Shown in pieces: positions 6,480-34,847 of a DNA stretch of 64,000 bases (the stretch's first letter is position 1; every line of letters starts with the position of its first letter). The notes beneath the pieces were generated by a model. It did not search any database. It was not told the DNA's origin and saw only the letters and a list, made by a program, of their open reading frames with translations. Both the position numbers and the translations under genes were made by a program. Origin of the DNA: Sphingobium sp. (GTDB lineage: Bacteria; Pseudomonadota; Alphaproteobacteria; Sphingomonadales; Sphingomonadaceae); contig JAHFPV010000002.1 in the NCBI GenBank assembly GCA_023266575.1, positions 372,001 through 436,000 of the forward strand, in the 5' to 3' direction.

Positions 6480-7279
6480 GCGCTCTCTCCGGCGTCCGCG
6501 CGGGTACCGACCAGCGCGAACATTGCGCCCTGCGGGTCGAGCAGCTGGACGATCCAGCTGCCGCCGGGCACTTCGGACGGGCCGTGGAGGATCGTGCCGC
6601 CGCCTGCGGTCACCCGCGCCGCTGCCGCGTCAATGTCCCCAACGACGAAGTAGAAGAGCCAGAGCGGCGCGGGCATTTCCTTGGGGACCGGCATGATGCC
6701 GCCCGACATGCTGGGAAAATCGCTGCCGCCGGTCTGGGAGACGAGCTGGTAGATGCCCATGTCGCCCATATCCATGGCCTCTCCCTCGGTCCAGCCGAAC
6801 TGGCCGGTGTAGAAGGCCATGTCGGCATCGAAATTACCGCTATACAGCTCGTGCCAGCCGACATGGCCCATCGCCATGGGCGGCGGGGCTTCCATGCCGT
6901 CGGGGCTGGAGCCTTTGAGCAGCATGAAGGTGGCGCCGCCCGGATCGCCCATCACTGCGAAGCGCCCGACGCCGTCTATATCCTCCGCCGGGCGCTTGAT
7001 GCTGCCCCCGGCCGCGACCAGCCGCGCAGCGTCCGCATCAACATCGGCCGAGGCGATATAGCCGCCCCACCAGGGGGTCATGCCGCATTCCTTCGCTTCG
7101 GCCGGGATCGCCATCACCCCGCCCAGCGGCCCGGCGCTACCGACGACCAGCGTATAACCGCCATCTTCGCCAAACGGCATCTTGGTCCAGCCCACGACAT
7201 CGGTGTAGAAGGCGAGCGCGGCCTGAGGGTCGCTGGTCATCAGCTCGACCCAGAAAAATTGCCCGTTGCGGTCGGTCAT
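6476..7279 (-). CDS. Two-domain VOC (glyoxalase-fold) family protein
   Basis: The 267-residue protein has two VOC modules. The first runs from about residue 5 (FFWVELMTSDPQAALAFYTD) to 125. The second starts near 138 (GHVGWHELYSGNFDADMAFY) and runs to 258. This duplicated arrangement resembles mycobacterial CFP30B-type glyoxalase-like proteins. The substrate is not known. It is the second gene of the four-gene operon that starts with a DUF1428 protein, and it overlaps the next gene by 4 bases. Confidence 0.85.
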   Translation of the reverse strand: MTDRNGQFFWVELMTSDPQAALAFYTDVVGWTKMPFGEDGGYTLVVGSAGPLGGVMAIPAEAKECGMTPWWGGYIASADVDADAARLVAAGGSIKRPAEDIDGVGRFAVMGDPGGATFMLLKGSSPDGMEAPPPMAMGHVGWHELYSGNFDADMAFYTGQFGWTEGEAMDMGDMGIYQLVSQTGGSDFPSMSGGIMPVPKEMPAPLWLFYFVVGDIDAAAARVTAGGGTILHGPSEVPGGSWIVQLLDPQGAMFALVGTRADAGESA

Positions 7280-7302
7280 CGCCTCTCTCCTGCCTTAATG
7301 GT

Positions 7303-7665
7303 TCAAGCCTTTTCGTCGACCAGCACGGTAAAGCCGCCATAGATGAGGCGTGCACCGCTGAACGGCATGTCCTGCCCCTCCTCCGGCTTCATCCGCTCGT
7401 CCGCCATCATCTTGGCGGAACCTGCGTCGCGGGTTTCCTTGTCGGGCCATTCGATCCAGGAAAAGACGACCTCTTCGGCCTCTTCGGCGATCACGGCGGT
7501 GCGGAAATCGTTGACCTTGCCCAGCTTGATATCGTCGCCCCAACATTCGACCACGCGGGTCGCGCCATATTCGATGAAGATCGGGGCCATTTTCGCCGCG
7601 ATATCAATATAGGCCTGCTTGTTGCCCTTGGGCACCGGGATCACGAAACCGTCCATATAGGCCAT
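7303..7665 (-). CDS. DUF1428 family protein
   Basis: This 120-residue protein starts MAYMDGFVIPVPKGNKQAY and is a typical full-length member of the ferredoxin-like-fold DUF1428 family (dimeric alpha-beta barrel). The start at 7665 follows a GGAGGAGAGAG ribosome binding site; an upstream in-frame ATG has no such site. It is the first gene of an operon continuing with a two-domain VOC protein, a PhnB-like protein and an SRPBCC protein, so all four probably act on one set of small molecules. No catalytic residues are known for the family. Confidence 0.87.
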   Translation of the reverse strand: MAYMDGFVIPVPKGNKQAYIDIAAKMAPIFIEYGATRVVECWGDDIKLGKVNDFRTAVIAEEAEEVVFSWIEWPDKETRDAGSAKMMADERMKPEEGQDMPFSGARLIYGGFTVLVDEKA

Positions 7666-7774
7666 CGTCTCTCTCCTCCTTGGCTCCGCCATGCGCTGGC
7701 ATGACGGGCAGAGCCGCCAAGCGACTCGCCAGCGATGATGCCGCCGCGCCCGCCGATGCGCAACGGCGCGTCGC

Positions 7775-8647
7775 TTATTCGGTATTGGTCGGCAGTGGCT
7801 GGACCATCAGCCTTGGTCCCGGCGTGGCGGGCAGGGTCGGCGCGACGGCGGGCGGACGGGCGGCCTGTGATGGGGCCGCCGCATCGGGCGGGGGCGGCAG
7901 GTTCTGCTGGATCGCGCTGGTCACGCTGGGGGCAAAGCCGGCGCGCGGTGCTTCGCCGGGCGGCACGGGCGGGGGTGGCAGCGGCGTGGGGGCGGCCCAG
8001 ACGGTCACCGTCCCGCCGAAGCGCGACTGCCATTCGGCCAGCCGGCGCAGATAATCGGCATAGGCGGCGTAGAAATCCTGGAATGGCTTTTCCAGCTCCG
8101 CCAGCGCGGTCGGGGCATAGTCCAGCAGGGCGCTGGACGGCATCGTCAGCAGCTTTGCCCCGACGGCTTCGGCCACGGGGCAGAAGCTTTTGGTGACCGG
8201 CGGCAGCGAGAAGAAATTATAGACGGTCGTATTGAGCCGTTCGCGCGCGCCGAAGCCGGCGGTTCCATAGGCGACCTTATAGTTGCGATCGACCGCTTCA
8301 TTGGCCTGCGTCAGCACGGTCCCATGAAGATGGAGCAGCCGGTTATATTGCAGCCGCGCCAGATCCGCGGCGCTGCGGCAGGACAGCGCTGCAACGTTGA
8401 GCGCCATGCGGACATGCCACAGCGCGGTGTTGGAGGTAACCTTCCGATTGGGGGTCAGATATTTGCCATCCGCTATTTCCGGGATGCTCATATCCTCCAC
8501 CGCGCCCATGGGCGGGCGCGGCCGGACCGTTTCGACCAGCGGCGGCGGCGGGGTTGGCTCCGGTTTCTTTACCGGGGTCGAACAGGCCGCCAGCACGGCC
8601 AGCGACACAAGCGAAAAACGGCCATAAAAACGGCGCAGGACGATCAT
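7775..8647 (-). CDS. Predicted lipoprotein, hypothetical
   Basis: The 290-residue product starts MIVLRRFYGRFSLVSLAVLAAC, a lipoprotein signal with lipobox LAAC. The start is preceded by GGAGAA. A proline-rich linker (KKPEPTPPPPL) follows the lipid anchor. Next comes an alpha-helical domain with two cysteines, and then a long Pro/Ala-rich tail. It is likely anchored to the outer or inner membrane facing the periplasm. I do not recognise the central domain. It is read as a single gene upstream of the DUF1428 operon, separated by about 110 bases. Confidence 0.72.
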   Translation of the reverse strand: MIVLRRFYGRFSLVSLAVLAACSTPVKKPEPTPPPPLVETVRPRPPMGAVEDMSIPEIADGKYLTPNRKVTSNTALWHVRMALNVAALSCRSAADLARLQYNRLLHLHGTVLTQANEAVDRNYKVAYGTAGFGARERLNTTVYNFFSLPPVTKSFCPVAEAVGAKLLTMPSSALLDYAPTALAELEKPFQDFYAAYADYLRRLAEWQSRFGGTVTVWAAPTPLPPPPVPPGEAPRAGFAPSVTSAIQQNLPPPPDAAAPSQAARPPAVAPTLPATPGPRLMVQPLPTNTE

Positions 8648-29900: not shown

Positions 29901-31721
29901 TTAGGCCGCTTTCGAGCGGCTCATGCGCTTGCGCTCGTTCGGGTCGAGGTAACGCTTGCGCAGACGAATCGTCTTGGGCGTGACTTCGACCAGTTCATCG
30001 TCATCGATATAGGCGATGGCCTGTTCCAGCGTCAGCTTCCATGGCGGGGTCAGGCGAACGGCGTCGTCCTTGCCGCTGGCGCGGAAGTTGGTCAGCGCCT
30101 TGGACTTCATGGGGTTGACTTCCAGATCGTCGGGCTTGGCATTTTCGCCGATGATCATGCCTTCATAGAGCGCTTCGCCCACGCCCACCATCAGGATGCC
30201 GCGTTCTTCGAGCGGACCCAGCGCATAGGCATTGGCTTCGCCCGCGCCGTTGGAGATCAGGACGCCATTCTTGCGGCCTTCGATCTTGCCCTTGTGGGGG
30301 CCATATTTCTCGAACAGGCGGTTCATGATGCCGGTGCCGCGCGTGTCGGACAGGAATTCGCCATGATAGCCGATCAGGCCGCGCGAGGGGGCGGAGAAGG
30401 TGATGCGGGTCTTGCCGCCGCCCGACGGGCGCATGTCGGTCATTTCCGCCTTGCGCAGGTTCATCTTTTCGACAACCGTGCCGGAAAATTCATCATCGAC
30501 GTCGATCATGACGGTTTCATAAGGCTCGGTCTTGTTGCCGTCCTCATCCTCACCGAACAGCACGCGCGGGCGGCTGATCGACAGCTCGAAACCTTCGCGG
30601 CGCATGGTTTCGATGAGGACACCCAGCTGAAGCTCACCGCGACCGGCGACTTCGAAGCTGTCCTTGTCGGCGCTTTCAGTGACCTTAACGGCCACGTTCG
30701 ATTCGGCTTCGCGGGCCAGACGATCGCGGATCATGCGGCTCGTCACCTTGGTGCCTTCGCGGCCAGCCATCGGCGAATCATTCACGGCAAAGCGCATCGA
30801 GAGGGTTGGCGGATCGATCGGCTGGGCCTGGATCGGCACGGTGACCGACGTGTCGCAGATGGTGTTGGCGACGGTCGCGACCGCCAGACCGGCGAGTGAG
30901 ATGATGTCGCCAGCCTTGGCTTCATCGACAGGCACGCGATCGAGGCCATGGAACGCCATGATCTTGGACGCGCGGCCGGTTTCGATGACCTTGCCATCCA
31001 TGTCGAGCGCGTGGATCGCCTGGTTGACCTTCACCGAACCGCTGGTCACGCGACCGGTGAGGATGCGACCCAGGAAATTGTCACGATCAAGCAGCGTTAC
31101 CAGGAAGGTGAAAGGCACGCCATCGACTTCCACGGCGGGCGCAGGCACATGATCGACGATCTTCTGGAACAGCGGCTTCAACGTACCCGAACGCAGCGTG
31201 GGATCTTCATTGGCATAGCCGTTGCGGCCCGACGCGTAGAGGACGGGGAAGTCGAGCTGCTCGTCGGTCGCGTCGAGCGACACGAACAGGTCGAACACTT
31301 CGTCCAGCACTTCCTGAATACGCTCGTCGGGACGGTCGACCTTGTTGACGACGACGATGGGACGCAGGCCCAGCGCCAGCGCCTTGCCGGTCACGAACTT
31401 GGTCTGCGGCATCGCGCCTTCCGACGAATCGACCAGCAGGACGACGCCATCGACCATCGAGAGAATGCGCTCGACTTCGCCACCAAAGTCGGCGTGACCG
31501 GGCGTGTCGACGATGTTGATGCGGGTGCCTTCCCACTCGACCGAGGTCGGCTTGGCCAGGATGGTGATGCCGCGCTCTTTTTCAAGGTCGTTGCTGTCCA
31601 TCGCGCGCTCTTCGACGCGCTGATTGTCGCGGAAGGTGCCGGACTGGCGGAAAAGCTGATCGACGAGGGTGGTTTTGCCGTGATCGACGTGCGCGATGAT
31701 CGCGATATTACGCAGGGACAT
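29901..31721 (-). CDS. typA: Ribosome-associated GTPase BipA/TypA
   Basis: The 606-residue translational GTPase starts at [20 protein letters not shown]; residues before it lack family similarity. The GTPase motifs are AHVDHGKT (G1), [11 protein letters not shown] (G3) and NKVDRPD (G4). Domains II, III and V follow, ending in [19 protein letters not shown] as in TypA. It acts on the ribosome in stress response and assembly. It is downstream of, and in the same direction as, the radical SAM/peptide locus but separated by 159 bases. Confidence 0.96.
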
Positions 31722-31880
31722 GTCTTGCCTTTGGGATATGGGCTCCCCTGGCCGACACGAGGTCACACAGAGGCTTCGGGCGCGCCCCTACAGGAATTGA
31801 TGCGCCGCGGCAAGGCTTGGGGGTTTGGCGTTGGGGGAAGTGATGCGGGGAGCGGGCGGCCGTCCCGCTCCCGCGCCGGA

Positions 31881-32102
31881 TCAATGATTGATGGTGATGA
31901 TGTTCGTCGACGCAACACTGCCGTCGAACCACGCCTTGCCGTCCGTCAGATCAAGATGCAGGCCCAGATCCTTGATCGCGGTGGCATCGTCAATATCGAC
32001 GCCCTGTTCCTTGAGCAGACCCAGAAAGCTGTTCATGAAGCGCACGCGCGCCGCAGGACTGGCTTGCAACTTGGTCGTCAGAGTAGCTCTTGCCGTACCC
32101 AT
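31881..32102 (-). CDS. Candidate RiPP precursor peptide
   Basis: The peptide is about 73 residues (75 if the first of two ATGs is used). The second ATG at 32102 is preferred because AGAGAGGA lies 8 bases upstream of it and only 2 upstream of the first. The N-terminal two-thirds is a helical leader-like region (TTKLQASPAARVRFMNSFLGLL). The C-terminal tail is AWFDGSVASTNIITINH, rich in Ser, Thr, Asn and beta-branched Ile and Val. There is no cysteine and no signal peptide. It lies 18 bases after a radical SAM gene in the same operon. A substrate role for that enzyme is inferred, not shown. Confidence 0.62.
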   Translation of the reverse strand: MGTARATLTTKLQASPAARVRFMNSFLGLLKEQGVDIDDATAIKDLGLHLDLTDGKAWFDGSVASTNIITINH

Positions 32103-32120
32103 ATCCATATTCCTCTCTGT

Positions 32121-33197
32121 TCAGCTGCAGTGTTCGAGCATGTTTCCGAAGAAGGCTGCAGCGCGTTCCTTCCCCAAAACCCCTTCGACCCGGTCCATTG
32201 TTTTGATGATTTCCTGCGTGCGGTAGGTTTCAAACACGGCCTGCACGCGGGCGGCGATCTGCGGTTTGCGAAGCACCGCATGGCATGTGCTGCACGCACC
32301 GGGATAATCCTCGAACTTCGGCATGTCGGCATGGAGCGCCGGATCGAGCCGTTCGATGATGTCGTAAAATTGCGGAAATCCCTCCCGCTTGATCACGCGC
32401 AGCAAAAGCGACGCCTCGATTCGCGCGCGGATCAGCGCCAATGGCTCGGTAAATGCATTGCCCATGACCAGGCCCGGCGTCGCCCGGTTGAAGGTCGAAC
32501 AGCAGGGATAGGTCTTGCCATCCCAGAATATGACAATGTCATGATGGACGCGCCGGTAGCAGGTTTTGACCTTCGGCCCCGTCAGCGCGGCATAATCGAC
32601 ATCCCATTTGGTTGCCCGGCCGGTCTTGGCCACGATCTTGTCGATCAGATGGACGTTGGGGACATCGACCAATTCCGGTACGAATTCGCGCAACGTGCCG
32701 CCGGGCGTGTCAAAGGTGCCGACGATGTAAACCGGAATGTCGTGTGCCGCGCAGGCATGGGCGGCCCGCGTCACCGCGTCCGGCGTGACGAATTCGGCGT
32801 GGGACGGGTCGCAACTGATGTTCATCCGGCGCAGGCCGCACGCCGCCATGCGCGCCGCCAAATCCCGTGCTTCCTCCCCGCTTTCGCCCCAGTAGCCCGA
32901 ACTCGCCACCGTGAAGGGCAAGCCGTGCAGCGCGCAACGGTCGATCATCGCCAGGAAATCGTCGCGATGCACCATGGGTTCGCCGCCGGTGAAGCCGACC
33001 GATGAAAAATGCTCGATGGCCGCGGCCTGGTCGATCAGGCTTAACGCCTGGTCGATCGGCATCCGTTCGCTACGACCGGGATGACAGCCATAACAACAGA
33101 AATCGCATGACAAAGGACATGTCATCGTCGTGTTGAGGACAAGAACATCCTTCTCAAGAATGGCGGACCATTCTCTCAAATCTTCATATTCTGACAA
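32121..33197 (-). CDS. Radical SAM protein with SPASM-like C-terminus
   Basis: The 358-residue enzyme has the SAM/[4Fe-4S] motif CPLSCDFC (Cys27, 31, 34) followed immediately by Cys35 and Cys38 (CCYGCHPG), and the SAM-binding GGEP at 71-74. The C-terminal part holds Cys213, Cys232-233, Cys302, Cys305 and Cys357, as in SPASM or twitch-type auxiliary clusters. The CxxxCxxCCxxC start recalls peptide-modifying enzymes such as YydG-type epimerases, but that is only a pattern likeness. A GGGGAGG at 33207-33213 supports the unusual TTG start. A small peptide gene follows at once, so a RiPP maturase is the likely role. Confidence 0.82.
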   Translation of the reverse strand: MSEYEDLREWSAILEKDVLVLNTTMTCPLSCDFCCYGCHPGRSERMPIDQALSLIDQAAAIEHFSSVGFTGGEPMVHRDDFLAMIDRCALHGLPFTVASSGYWGESGEEARDLAARMAACGLRRMNISCDPSHAEFVTPDAVTRAAHACAAHDIPVYIVGTFDTPGGTLREFVPELVDVPNVHLIDKIVAKTGRATKWDVDYAALTGPKVKTCYRRVHHDIVIFWDGKTYPCCSTFNRATPGLVMGNAFTEPLALIRARIEASLLLRVIKREGFPQFYDIIERLDPALHADMPKFEDYPGACSTCHAVLRKPQIAARVQAVFETYRTQEIIKTMDRVEGVLGKERAAAFFGNMLEHCS

Positions 33198-33623
33198 AAC
33201 CCTATCCTCCCCGACGAATATACGCGAAGATCAATCTGTTATGACGATTTTGGATTTTTTATGGAGCGACCACCGCCAGTATGTCGGCGACTCGAATATT
33301 AGCAGTATGGTCCTATGCCATCAATTTTAATGATAACTGTATTTGTATTAACCATAATTAACTGAACGAATATTGTCAGTCATGTTGACGTTTTGATCGT
33401 CAAGATGGTGCCAAATCAGCGCGTTAACCGATGATAGCCGCGCAGGATTTTTTCGTCCGGCCATCGCCGTGAGCGACAAAGCACCAAAGGAGCGCTGACC
33501 TGGCTTTTTGGTTCCGATGTCCCGATCCATTTGCATCGGGCGCGGGGCCGCGCCATATTTCGGGCCTGTTCCGCATTGAAGATGCAGTGTTATAGTCGCA
33601 TATAACAGCCGCAAGGAGATAGC
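33198..33623. other. 426-base AT-rich intergenic region between radical SAM gene and telA
   Basis: No credible gene is seen here. The first 170 bases are clearly AT-richer than the rest of the window and hold the radical SAM ribosome binding site (33207-33213). An inverted repeat TTGACG-N7-CGTCAA lies at 33385-33403. Another, GTTATA-N6-TATAAC, lies at 33589-33606, about 17 bases before the telA start codon. Promoters for both divergent units must lie here. The compositional change may mark acquired DNA. Confidence 0.6.
33589..33606. promoter_or_regulatory. Inverted repeat upstream of telA
   Basis: GTTATA at 33589-33594 and TATAAC at 33601-33606 are exact inverse copies with a 6-base spacer. 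Their end is 17 bases before the telA ATG, overlapping the likely promoter or leader region. It could be an operator; no regulator is identified. Confidence 0.4.
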
Positions 33624-34847
33624 ATGGCCAGCACCGCGCCCACCACGACCGCAACATCCTCCGGCGATCCGTTCAGCCTGACCCCGCCCGACCCGGTGCC
33701 GGTCGTCAGCGCCGAGAGGGCCGCCGGGCTGGTGCCGATCGACGAAGGCAAAAAGTCCAAGCTGGACGAGAAGGTCGATGCCTTCATCGACGATCTGGTG
33801 GCGCAGGACGCCAATTCGCCGGCATTTGGCGCGCGGGTCGATCAGCTGACCAATATGGGGCGCAAGGAAATTGCCGAGGCAGCGGGCCACTCCAACCGCT
33901 TCCTCGACCGGCCCGTGCGGGCGATGGACAGCGACAGCAAGGTCGGCGCGGACCTGGCCGAACTGCGCCGCATGGTCGAGGATCTGGACCCCGGCAAGCG
34001 CGGCAGCCTGACCAGCCGCAAAAAGCTGTTCGGGATCATCCCCTTCGGCAACAAGATGCGCGACTATTTCGACGGCTATAAGAGCGCGCAGAGCCATATC
34101 AATTCCATCCTGGGATCGCTGGCAAGCGGCAAGGACACGCTGATCAAGGATAATGCCGCGATCGATGTCGAGCGGCAGAATATGTGGGCGACGATGGGTC
34201 GTCTGGAACAGATGATCCATATCAGCAAGACGATGGACGCGCGGCTGGAGGCCAAGGCGCTGGAGCTGGATTCGACCGACCCGACCAAGGCGAAGGCGAT
34301 CCGCGAGAGCGCGCTGTTCTACATTCGCCAGCGCACGCAGGATTTGCTGACCCAGATGGCAGTAACGGTGCAAGGTTATCTGGCGCTCGATCTGGTGAAG
34401 AAGAACAATGTCGAGCTGGTCAAGGGCGTGGACCGCGCCTCCACCACCACGGTCGCGGCGCTGCGCACGGCGGTGACGGTGGCGCAGGCGCTGGTCGGGC
34501 AAAGGCTGGTGCTGGAGCAGATCACCGCGCTCAACACCACGACCGCGAACATGATCGATTCGACCGGCGAATTGCTGAAAAGCCAGACCGCGCAGATTCA
34601 CGAGCAGGCCGCGTCGAGCACGATCCCGATCGAGACGTTGCAGCGCGCGTTCCAGAACATCTACGACACGATGGACAATATCGACAGCTTCAAGCTGAAA
34701 GCGCTGGAGAATATGAAAACCACGGTGACCACGCTGTCGAACGAGGTCGAAAAGTCCAAGGGCTATATCGCGCGGGCCGAAGGACAGGCGCAGGCGTCGA
34801 AGGAAGCGCGGGCGGACAATCCCCTGCTGAGCGCGATCGAGGGGTGA
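33624..34847 (+). CDS. telA: TelA/KlaA-like toxic anion resistance protein
   Basis: The 407-residue cytoplasmic protein matches the TelA family (tellurite and other toxic anion resistance) through GSLTSRKKLFGIIPFGNKMRDYFDGYKSAQSHI and a long helical C-terminus (YIRQRTQDLLTQMAVTVQGY). AAGGAG lies 7 bases before the ATG. It is followed by an XpaC-like gene, a common pairing. The family mechanism is unclear; it is often linked to membrane stress. Confidence 0.9.
   Translation: MASTAPTTTATSSGDPFSLTPPDPVPVVSAERAAGLVPIDEGKKSKLDEKVDAFIDDLVAQDANSPAFGARVDQLTNMGRKEIAEAAGHSNRFLDRPVRAMDSDSKVGADLAELRRMVEDLDPGKRGSLTSRKKLFGIIPFGNKMRDYFDGYKSAQSHINSILGSLASGKDTLIKDNAAIDVERQNMWATMGRLEQMIHISKTMDARLEAKALELDSTDPTKAKAIRESALFYIRQRTQDLLTQMAVTVQGYLALDLVKKNNVELVKGVDRASTTTVAALRTAVTVAQALVGQRLVLEQITALNTTTANMIDSTGELLKSQTAQIHEQAASSTIPIETLQRAFQNIYDTMDNIDSFKLKALENMKTTVTTLSNEVEKSKGYIARAEGQAQASKEARADNPLLSAIEG

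Follow-up and report, generated by a model that had tools for sequence, protein, structure and literature searches.

An EpeE-like radical SAM enzyme paired with a conserved small peptide in Sphingobium: a candidate minimal RiPP system

Introduction

Do a radical S-adenosylmethionine (SAM) enzyme gene and the small gene behind it make up a peptide-modifying system, and if so, which chemistry does the enzyme perform? This question is raised by a locus in a 64,000-nucleotide stretch of Sphingobium sp. DNA (assembly GCA_023266575.1, contig JAHFPV010000002.1, positions 372,001 to 436,000 of the forward strand; hereafter, the window). The initial annotation, made from the sequence alone, had proposed an undescribed minimal system for a ribosomally synthesized and post-translationally modified peptide (RiPP), with an enzyme recalling peptide epimerases such as YydG (EpeE). 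In the accessible parts of the literature, EpeE-type D-residue peptides belong to Firmicutes and are accompanied by a protease and a transporter. The available text of one review describes the epimerization of Val36 and Ile44 of the substrate EpeX by EpeE and proposes Cys223 of the enzyme as the hydrogen-atom donor (PMC8326336). Here, we compared the Sphingobium pair with known enzymes and with its relatives in other genomes. The pairing recurs in scattered, distantly related bacteria, which suggests, as far as sequence comparison can tell, a family of peptides with mirror-image residues that seems not to have been described; most likely, this is a new RiPP family in which beta-branched core residues are epimerized.

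Organization of the two genes

The enzyme gene (32121-33197, minus strand) encodes 358 amino acids from a TTG start, and a ribosome-binding site, GGAGG, was read at 33206-33210, 8 bases ahead of this codon. The radical SAM cluster motif CxxxCxxC is formed by C27, C31, and C34; C35 and C38 follow, and C213, C232, C233, C302, C305, and C357 lie toward the C-terminus, where the initial annotation had counted six cysteines. C213, C232, and C302 with C305 may serve as ligands of an auxiliary cluster, and the C-terminal 50 residues were predicted to be helical. Downstream on the same strand lies the gene of a 73-residue peptide (31881-32102), preceded by the purine-rich AGAGAGGA and separated from the enzyme gene by 18 bases; if an ATG at 32108, two codons earlier, is used, the peptide has 75 residues. 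The length and the gap given initially hold for the 73-residue reading. The span of 31881-33213 assigned to the unit holds for both reading frames on the minus strand, except that coding ends at 33197 and that 33198-33213 is the ribosome-binding site region.

The front of the peptide is presumed to be a leader (approximately residues 1-50; 31953-32102, minus strand), with predicted helices at residues 3-14, 16-32, and 40-45. The tail (residues 52-73) was predicted to be disordered; the model behind these predictions is of low confidence overall (mean predicted local distance difference test (pLDDT) score 66.1). Its presumed core, SVASTNIITINH (residues 62-73; 31884-31919, minus strand), was placed by the positions conserved among 11 cores and has the Ser/Thr/Asn/Val/Ile-type ending that had been noted initially; we infer the limits of both segments.

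The enzyme resembles EpeE in predicted fold and catalytic residues

The best NCBIfam match of the enzyme was the YydG peptide epimerase model (TIGR04078; E = 3.6e-33, residues 19-311), and the second match (E = 1.5e-9) covered only the core (residues 19-135). The YydG model was also matched, at E values up to 1e-5, by all eight members of alignment A1, from which L003 and L005, two loci 98-99% identical to the window, had been omitted (alignments A2 and A3 were made without L003 and without the multi-core locus L011, respectively). A search of Protein Data Bank (PDB) sequences placed EpeE at the top with 4.5e-20, followed by the next distinct protein at 0.0041. Likewise, the nine top fold matches of the predicted enzyme structure (mean pLDDT 80.8) were EpeE chains, with template modeling (TM) scores of 0.71-0.73 by query and 0.79-0.81 by target, and the tenth was SuiB, with TM down to 0.38. 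By all three comparisons, the best-matching family acts on peptides and not on non-peptide substrates. A PHROGs search returned weak, radical SAM-only matches for the enzyme and none for the peptide.

Two EpeE mutants, C223A and D210A according to the titles of the PDB entries, allowed catalytic positions to be compared directly: the changed letters align with C233 and D220 of the window enzyme. Both residues are invariant in 8/8 subfamily rows. In a wider alignment of 15 rows, compiled without L003, L005, and L010, C233 was kept throughout, and D220 was Asp in seven subfamily rows and in Allochromatium. The resemblance to YydG proposed initially thus extends to fold and catalytic residues, but not to an epipeptide locus proper, as the score and the precursor comparison given below indicate.

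The likeness to EpeE could be one of fold only, with the enzyme performing other radical chemistry on the same peptide that also starts with hydrogen-atom abstraction at Val, Ile, or Thr, such as TvgB-like formation of cyclopropylglycine, desaturation, or cross-linking. The enzyme scored 115.3 bits against TIGR04078, well under the equivalog cut-off of 300, which would suit this explanation. According to the available text of its report, TvgB makes cyclopropylglycine from Val in a precursor with TVGG repeats (PMC9062424), and because TvgB acts on such a precursor, Val-rich repeats in a proteobacterium are no proof of epimerization. However, the hydrogen-donor cysteine of EpeE is invariant in the enzyme relatives, and the EpeE fold match lies far above every other match. 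We therefore regard a different radical chemistry as unlikely.

Conservation of the peptide and its pairing with the enzyme

A pattern scan of species genomes, which detects close relatives of the enzyme only, matched 53 stretches, 10 of which were confirmed, and yielded nine loci with an enzyme relative: two each in Sphingobium and Acinetobacter and one each in Sphingorhabdus, Palleronia, Bradyrhizobium, Candidimonas, and a Nitrobacter metagenome-assembled genome. In 9/9 loci, from seven genera, a homologous peptide gene lies downstream of the enzyme gene on the same strand, the two being -17 to +35 bases apart, so the expectation that the peptide would be conserved next to the enzyme in other genomes was borne out. 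Enzyme and peptide share the identical 3 of 94 genomes in the window's genus, and neither was found without the other among these 94. The 10 carrier genomes hold a single peptide match each, apart from one extra match in genome G783, which has an E value of 0.39 and an internal stop and is attributed to chance. Across six loci, the identities of enzyme and peptide correlate (r = 0.87, reached by 2/720 permutations); such a correlation is also expected from the shared descent of a linked pair.

Alignment of the peptide tails, a check suggested in the initial annotation, revealed a conserved core with the consensus A-[ST]-[ST]-x-[IV]-[IV]-T. Eight loci, counting the window but not L003 and L005 with their window-identical cores, gave 11 cores, in which the T, both [IV] positions, and both [ST] positions were kept in 11/11 and the A in 10/11. 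The ratio of nonsynonymous to synonymous substitution (dN/dS) of the peptide gene was 0.03-0.12 in four close pairs (window-L003, 0.012/0.102; window-L005, 0.006/0.146; L003-L005, 0.006/0.147; L009-L010, 0.037/1.22) and approximately 0.28 for window-L006; dS was not computable for window-L004. By this measure, the peptide is under purifying selection. No Pfam or NCBIfam family, and hence no leader family, matched the window peptide at E values up to 1, and its best match among PDB sequences (E = 0.043) was unconvincing.

In the Nitrobacter homologue (L011:7065-7591), only the tail of the peptide is repeated: four tandem cores lie in 69-base repeats, each followed by R-SSTGR, and may be cut apart at Arg. 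A frame at 7221-8441 of this locus, with a provisional start, overlaps the precursor and extends downstream; approximately 0.3 kb past the peptide stop begins its peptidase domain, which is of the trypsin-like type (PF13365, E = 2.8e-18).

These observations bear on whether the peptide is the substrate at all. The small gene could encode a regulator, a chaperone, or an unrelated co-transcribed protein, with the enzyme acting elsewhere; distant epimerase-like enzymes do adjoin other, dissimilar small proteins, and the contact between enzyme and peptide is one that we infer. Against this stand the constant order and strand at all loci, the lack of either gene alone in the genus, the correlated identities, and the multiplication of the tail alone, and we consider such a role very improbable. 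A thioether (sactipeptide or ranthipeptide) reading was rejected because the aligned peptides contain no Cys.

Relatives of the pair and their neighbours

Some relatives carry additional genes. In Bradyrhizobium, the peptide gene is followed by that of a RiPP C-methyltransferase (TIGR03975, 635.7 bits, cut-off 281.85). GNAT acetyltransferase genes (L006:7308-7760 and L007:2131-2607; 40% identical) adjoin the pair in two genera, as the next gene on the same strand in Palleronia and upstream on the opposite strand in Bradyrhizobium; they are possibly tailoring or self-protection enzymes. The description of the unit as minimal thus suits the window, but not those relatives that are adjoined by a C-methyltransferase, GNAT, or trypsin-like peptidase gene. 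In both Acinetobacter loci, the pair lies between purL-like and dgt-like genes (families tested for L009), and an ISL3-type transposase is found near the Candidimonas pair. One of four other peptides (L008) gave a weak Nif11 match (14.2 bits vs a cut-off of 23.8).

Loci with distant EpeE-like enzymes (L013/L036, L015-L017, L029/L033, L030/L034, and L031/L032/L035) were kept outside the subfamily counts. The leader, compared by hhalign with peptides beside such enzymes, gave probabilities of 39.7%, 0.3%, and 21.1%; because this likeness is weak, those peptides were not counted in the family. The first value belongs to a locus in the window's family (L036:7190-8608), where an 87-amino-acid peptide gene lies just upstream of the enzyme gene. 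At L034:5330-10912 and in L033, a distant EpeE-like enzyme occurs with a RiPP C-methyltransferase (TIGR03975, 593 bits), a second radical SAM gene, a methyltransferase-like gene, and a small gene ending GTIHIDIL (84 amino acids, found in L033), likely a hypermodified RiPP cluster. In L016 and L017, from the phylum search, the enzymes follow small proteins of 160-172 amino acids with Ala/Ser-rich, partly repeating tails. On two Allochromatium plasmids (L018:6022-7047 and L019:6022-7047), a distant EpeE-like radical SAM gene is embedded in type III CRISPR genes, ahead of a gene of the EcsC family.

Genomic site and occurrence

In the window, the neighbours of the pair are typA (TIGR01394, 917 bits) and a TelA-family gene (PF05816); as first described, the pair does not adjoin any transporter, peptidase, or immunity gene, and no transposase or integrase was seen beside the pair. 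The nearest cassette-free relative, L054 (TelA protein 98% identical), is homologous to the window up to approximately 31815 and again from approximately 33615. Therefore, about 1.8 kb (31816-33614, without counterpart in L054) was either gained in the window or lost in L054; the left edge is clear, and the right edge is supported by 45 bases at 76% identity. Among the 26 telA loci in the genus, two contain the cassette. For the other 24, typA lies within 1.5 kb in 11 (at approximately 0.2 kb in ten and 1 kb in one), and 13 have no typA match there.

Counting in each case the carrier genome used as the search centre, the subfamily occurs in 3/94 genomes of the window's genus, 2/397 of the family (plus one distant), and 1/398 of the phylum (plus three distant). 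Around other carriers, the figures are 2/149 for the Acinetobacter genus and, at family level, 2/296 for Bradyrhizobium (plus three genomes with distant matches), 1/275 for Palleronia, and 1/250 for Candidimonas. Judged by this distribution, the pair appears to be a rare, patchy, and mobile cassette. A tree of 15 enzymes had very long branches and support for 3 of 12 inner branches; the case for transfer between genera is therefore built on the scattered distribution and the unoccupied site instead of the tree. Viral carriage was rejected (37 pattern stretches in viral contigs, none confirmed, and none in phages), as was plasmid carriage: 11 records matched the enzyme, none closely (best identity 35%), and the peptide had no match at E values up to 0.01.

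The G+C content is 59.6% for the enzyme gene, 55.7% for the peptide gene, and 63.7% for the window. A terminator scan found no intrinsic terminators within 31700-33660; by eye, a G+C-rich inverted repeat without a T-run lies directly past the peptide stop (31838-31880). Six promoter-like sites were found, compared with an expectation of 1.1 from shuffled sequence; two of the six lie upstream of the enzyme on the minus strand (33324-33379).

Discussion

Taken together, the locus is probably a minimal RiPP system in which an EpeE-type radical SAM epimerase recognises the leader of the peptide and epimerizes residues of its C-terminal core. In such a system, the helical front (approximately residues 1-50) would be bound by the enzyme as the leader, and the core around ASTNIITI would be the substrate. 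Reductive cleavage of SAM at the C27/C31/C34 cluster would generate a 5'-deoxyadenosyl radical, which would abstract the alpha-hydrogen from a beta-branched residue in the core, most likely from the conserved Ile/Val pair 68-69 and perhaps from its neighbours. C233 would then donate a hydrogen from the opposite face to give a D-residue. Leader removal and export would presumably be performed by unlinked genes.

Several points weigh against epimerization by an EpeE-type enzyme. The score falls short of the YydG equivalog cut-off, and in the fold alignment the enzyme is only about 21% identical to EpeE. D220 is replaced by Glu in two Macrococcus YydG proteins and by Thr, Leu, or Asn in five distant rows of the 15-row alignment. 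No protease, exporter or transporter, or immunity gene is linked to the pair in the window. Moreover, epimerization leaves the mass of a peptide unchanged.

A bolder and distinctly less probable proposal is that the cassette, moving among distantly related Pseudomonadota, installs D-residues in a fixed and almost invariant core, AS[ST]xIITI, to give a short hydrophobic D/L tail with no dedicated export or immunity. The product might then act as a conserved signal or membrane-active module, not as an arms-race antibiotic, with multi-core, protease-released, and C-methylated versions elsewhere.

If the epimerase reading is correct, this compact two-gene Gram-negative version, with its strongly conserved core and its natural precursors of one or four cores, would offer a simple means of introducing D-residues into ribosomal peptides, and the residue choice and leader need of EpeE-like enzymes would become directly testable. 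Among the titles and abstract openings of the open-access literature, we found no description of the peptide family or of EpeE-like epimerases in these genera; subscription journals lie mostly outside this search, so an account published elsewhere is possible.

Comparison with known systems

By sequence comparison, the pair has the features of RiPPs in general: a candidate precursor conserved beside a modifying enzyme at all nine loci, a predicted helical front and disordered tail as putative leader and core, conservation of the core, and a multi-core homologue. TvgB/TvgA of Halomonas anticariensis is likewise proteobacterial and pairs a radical SAM enzyme with a precursor of Val/Thr-rich repeats; according to the available part of its description, it differs in that the repeats are TVGG and a C-C bond is formed inside Val (PMC9062424). 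Proteusins (polytheonamide and its kin, with PoyD-type epimerases) would share radical SAM installation of D-residues and a critical Cys, and the Bradyrhizobium pair is followed by a RiPP C-methyltransferase of the TIGR03975 subfamily. However, the window peptide lacks a nitrile-hydratase-like or Nif11-type proteusin leader in Pfam and NCBIfam searches up to E = 1.

The closest known system is the epipeptide system epeXEPAB (yydFGHIJ) of Bacillus subtilis. Its enzyme, EpeE (PDB 8ai1-8ai6), shares with the window enzyme the family, the predicted fold, and the counterparts of C223 and D210, and the epimerized residues of EpeX, as given in the available text, are beta-branched (PMC8326336), like the candidate residues of the window core. 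In contrast, the window peptide has no detectable likeness to one Macrococcus YydF (hhalign probability 2.7%), and its gene follows that of the enzyme, whereas the peptide gene precedes it in two Macrococcus YydG controls. Both controls also have an adjacent peptidase (EpeP) and ATP-binding cassette transporter (EpeAB), which the window lacks. Thus, the pair would work like EpeE, but by the features tested it is not an epipeptide system proper.
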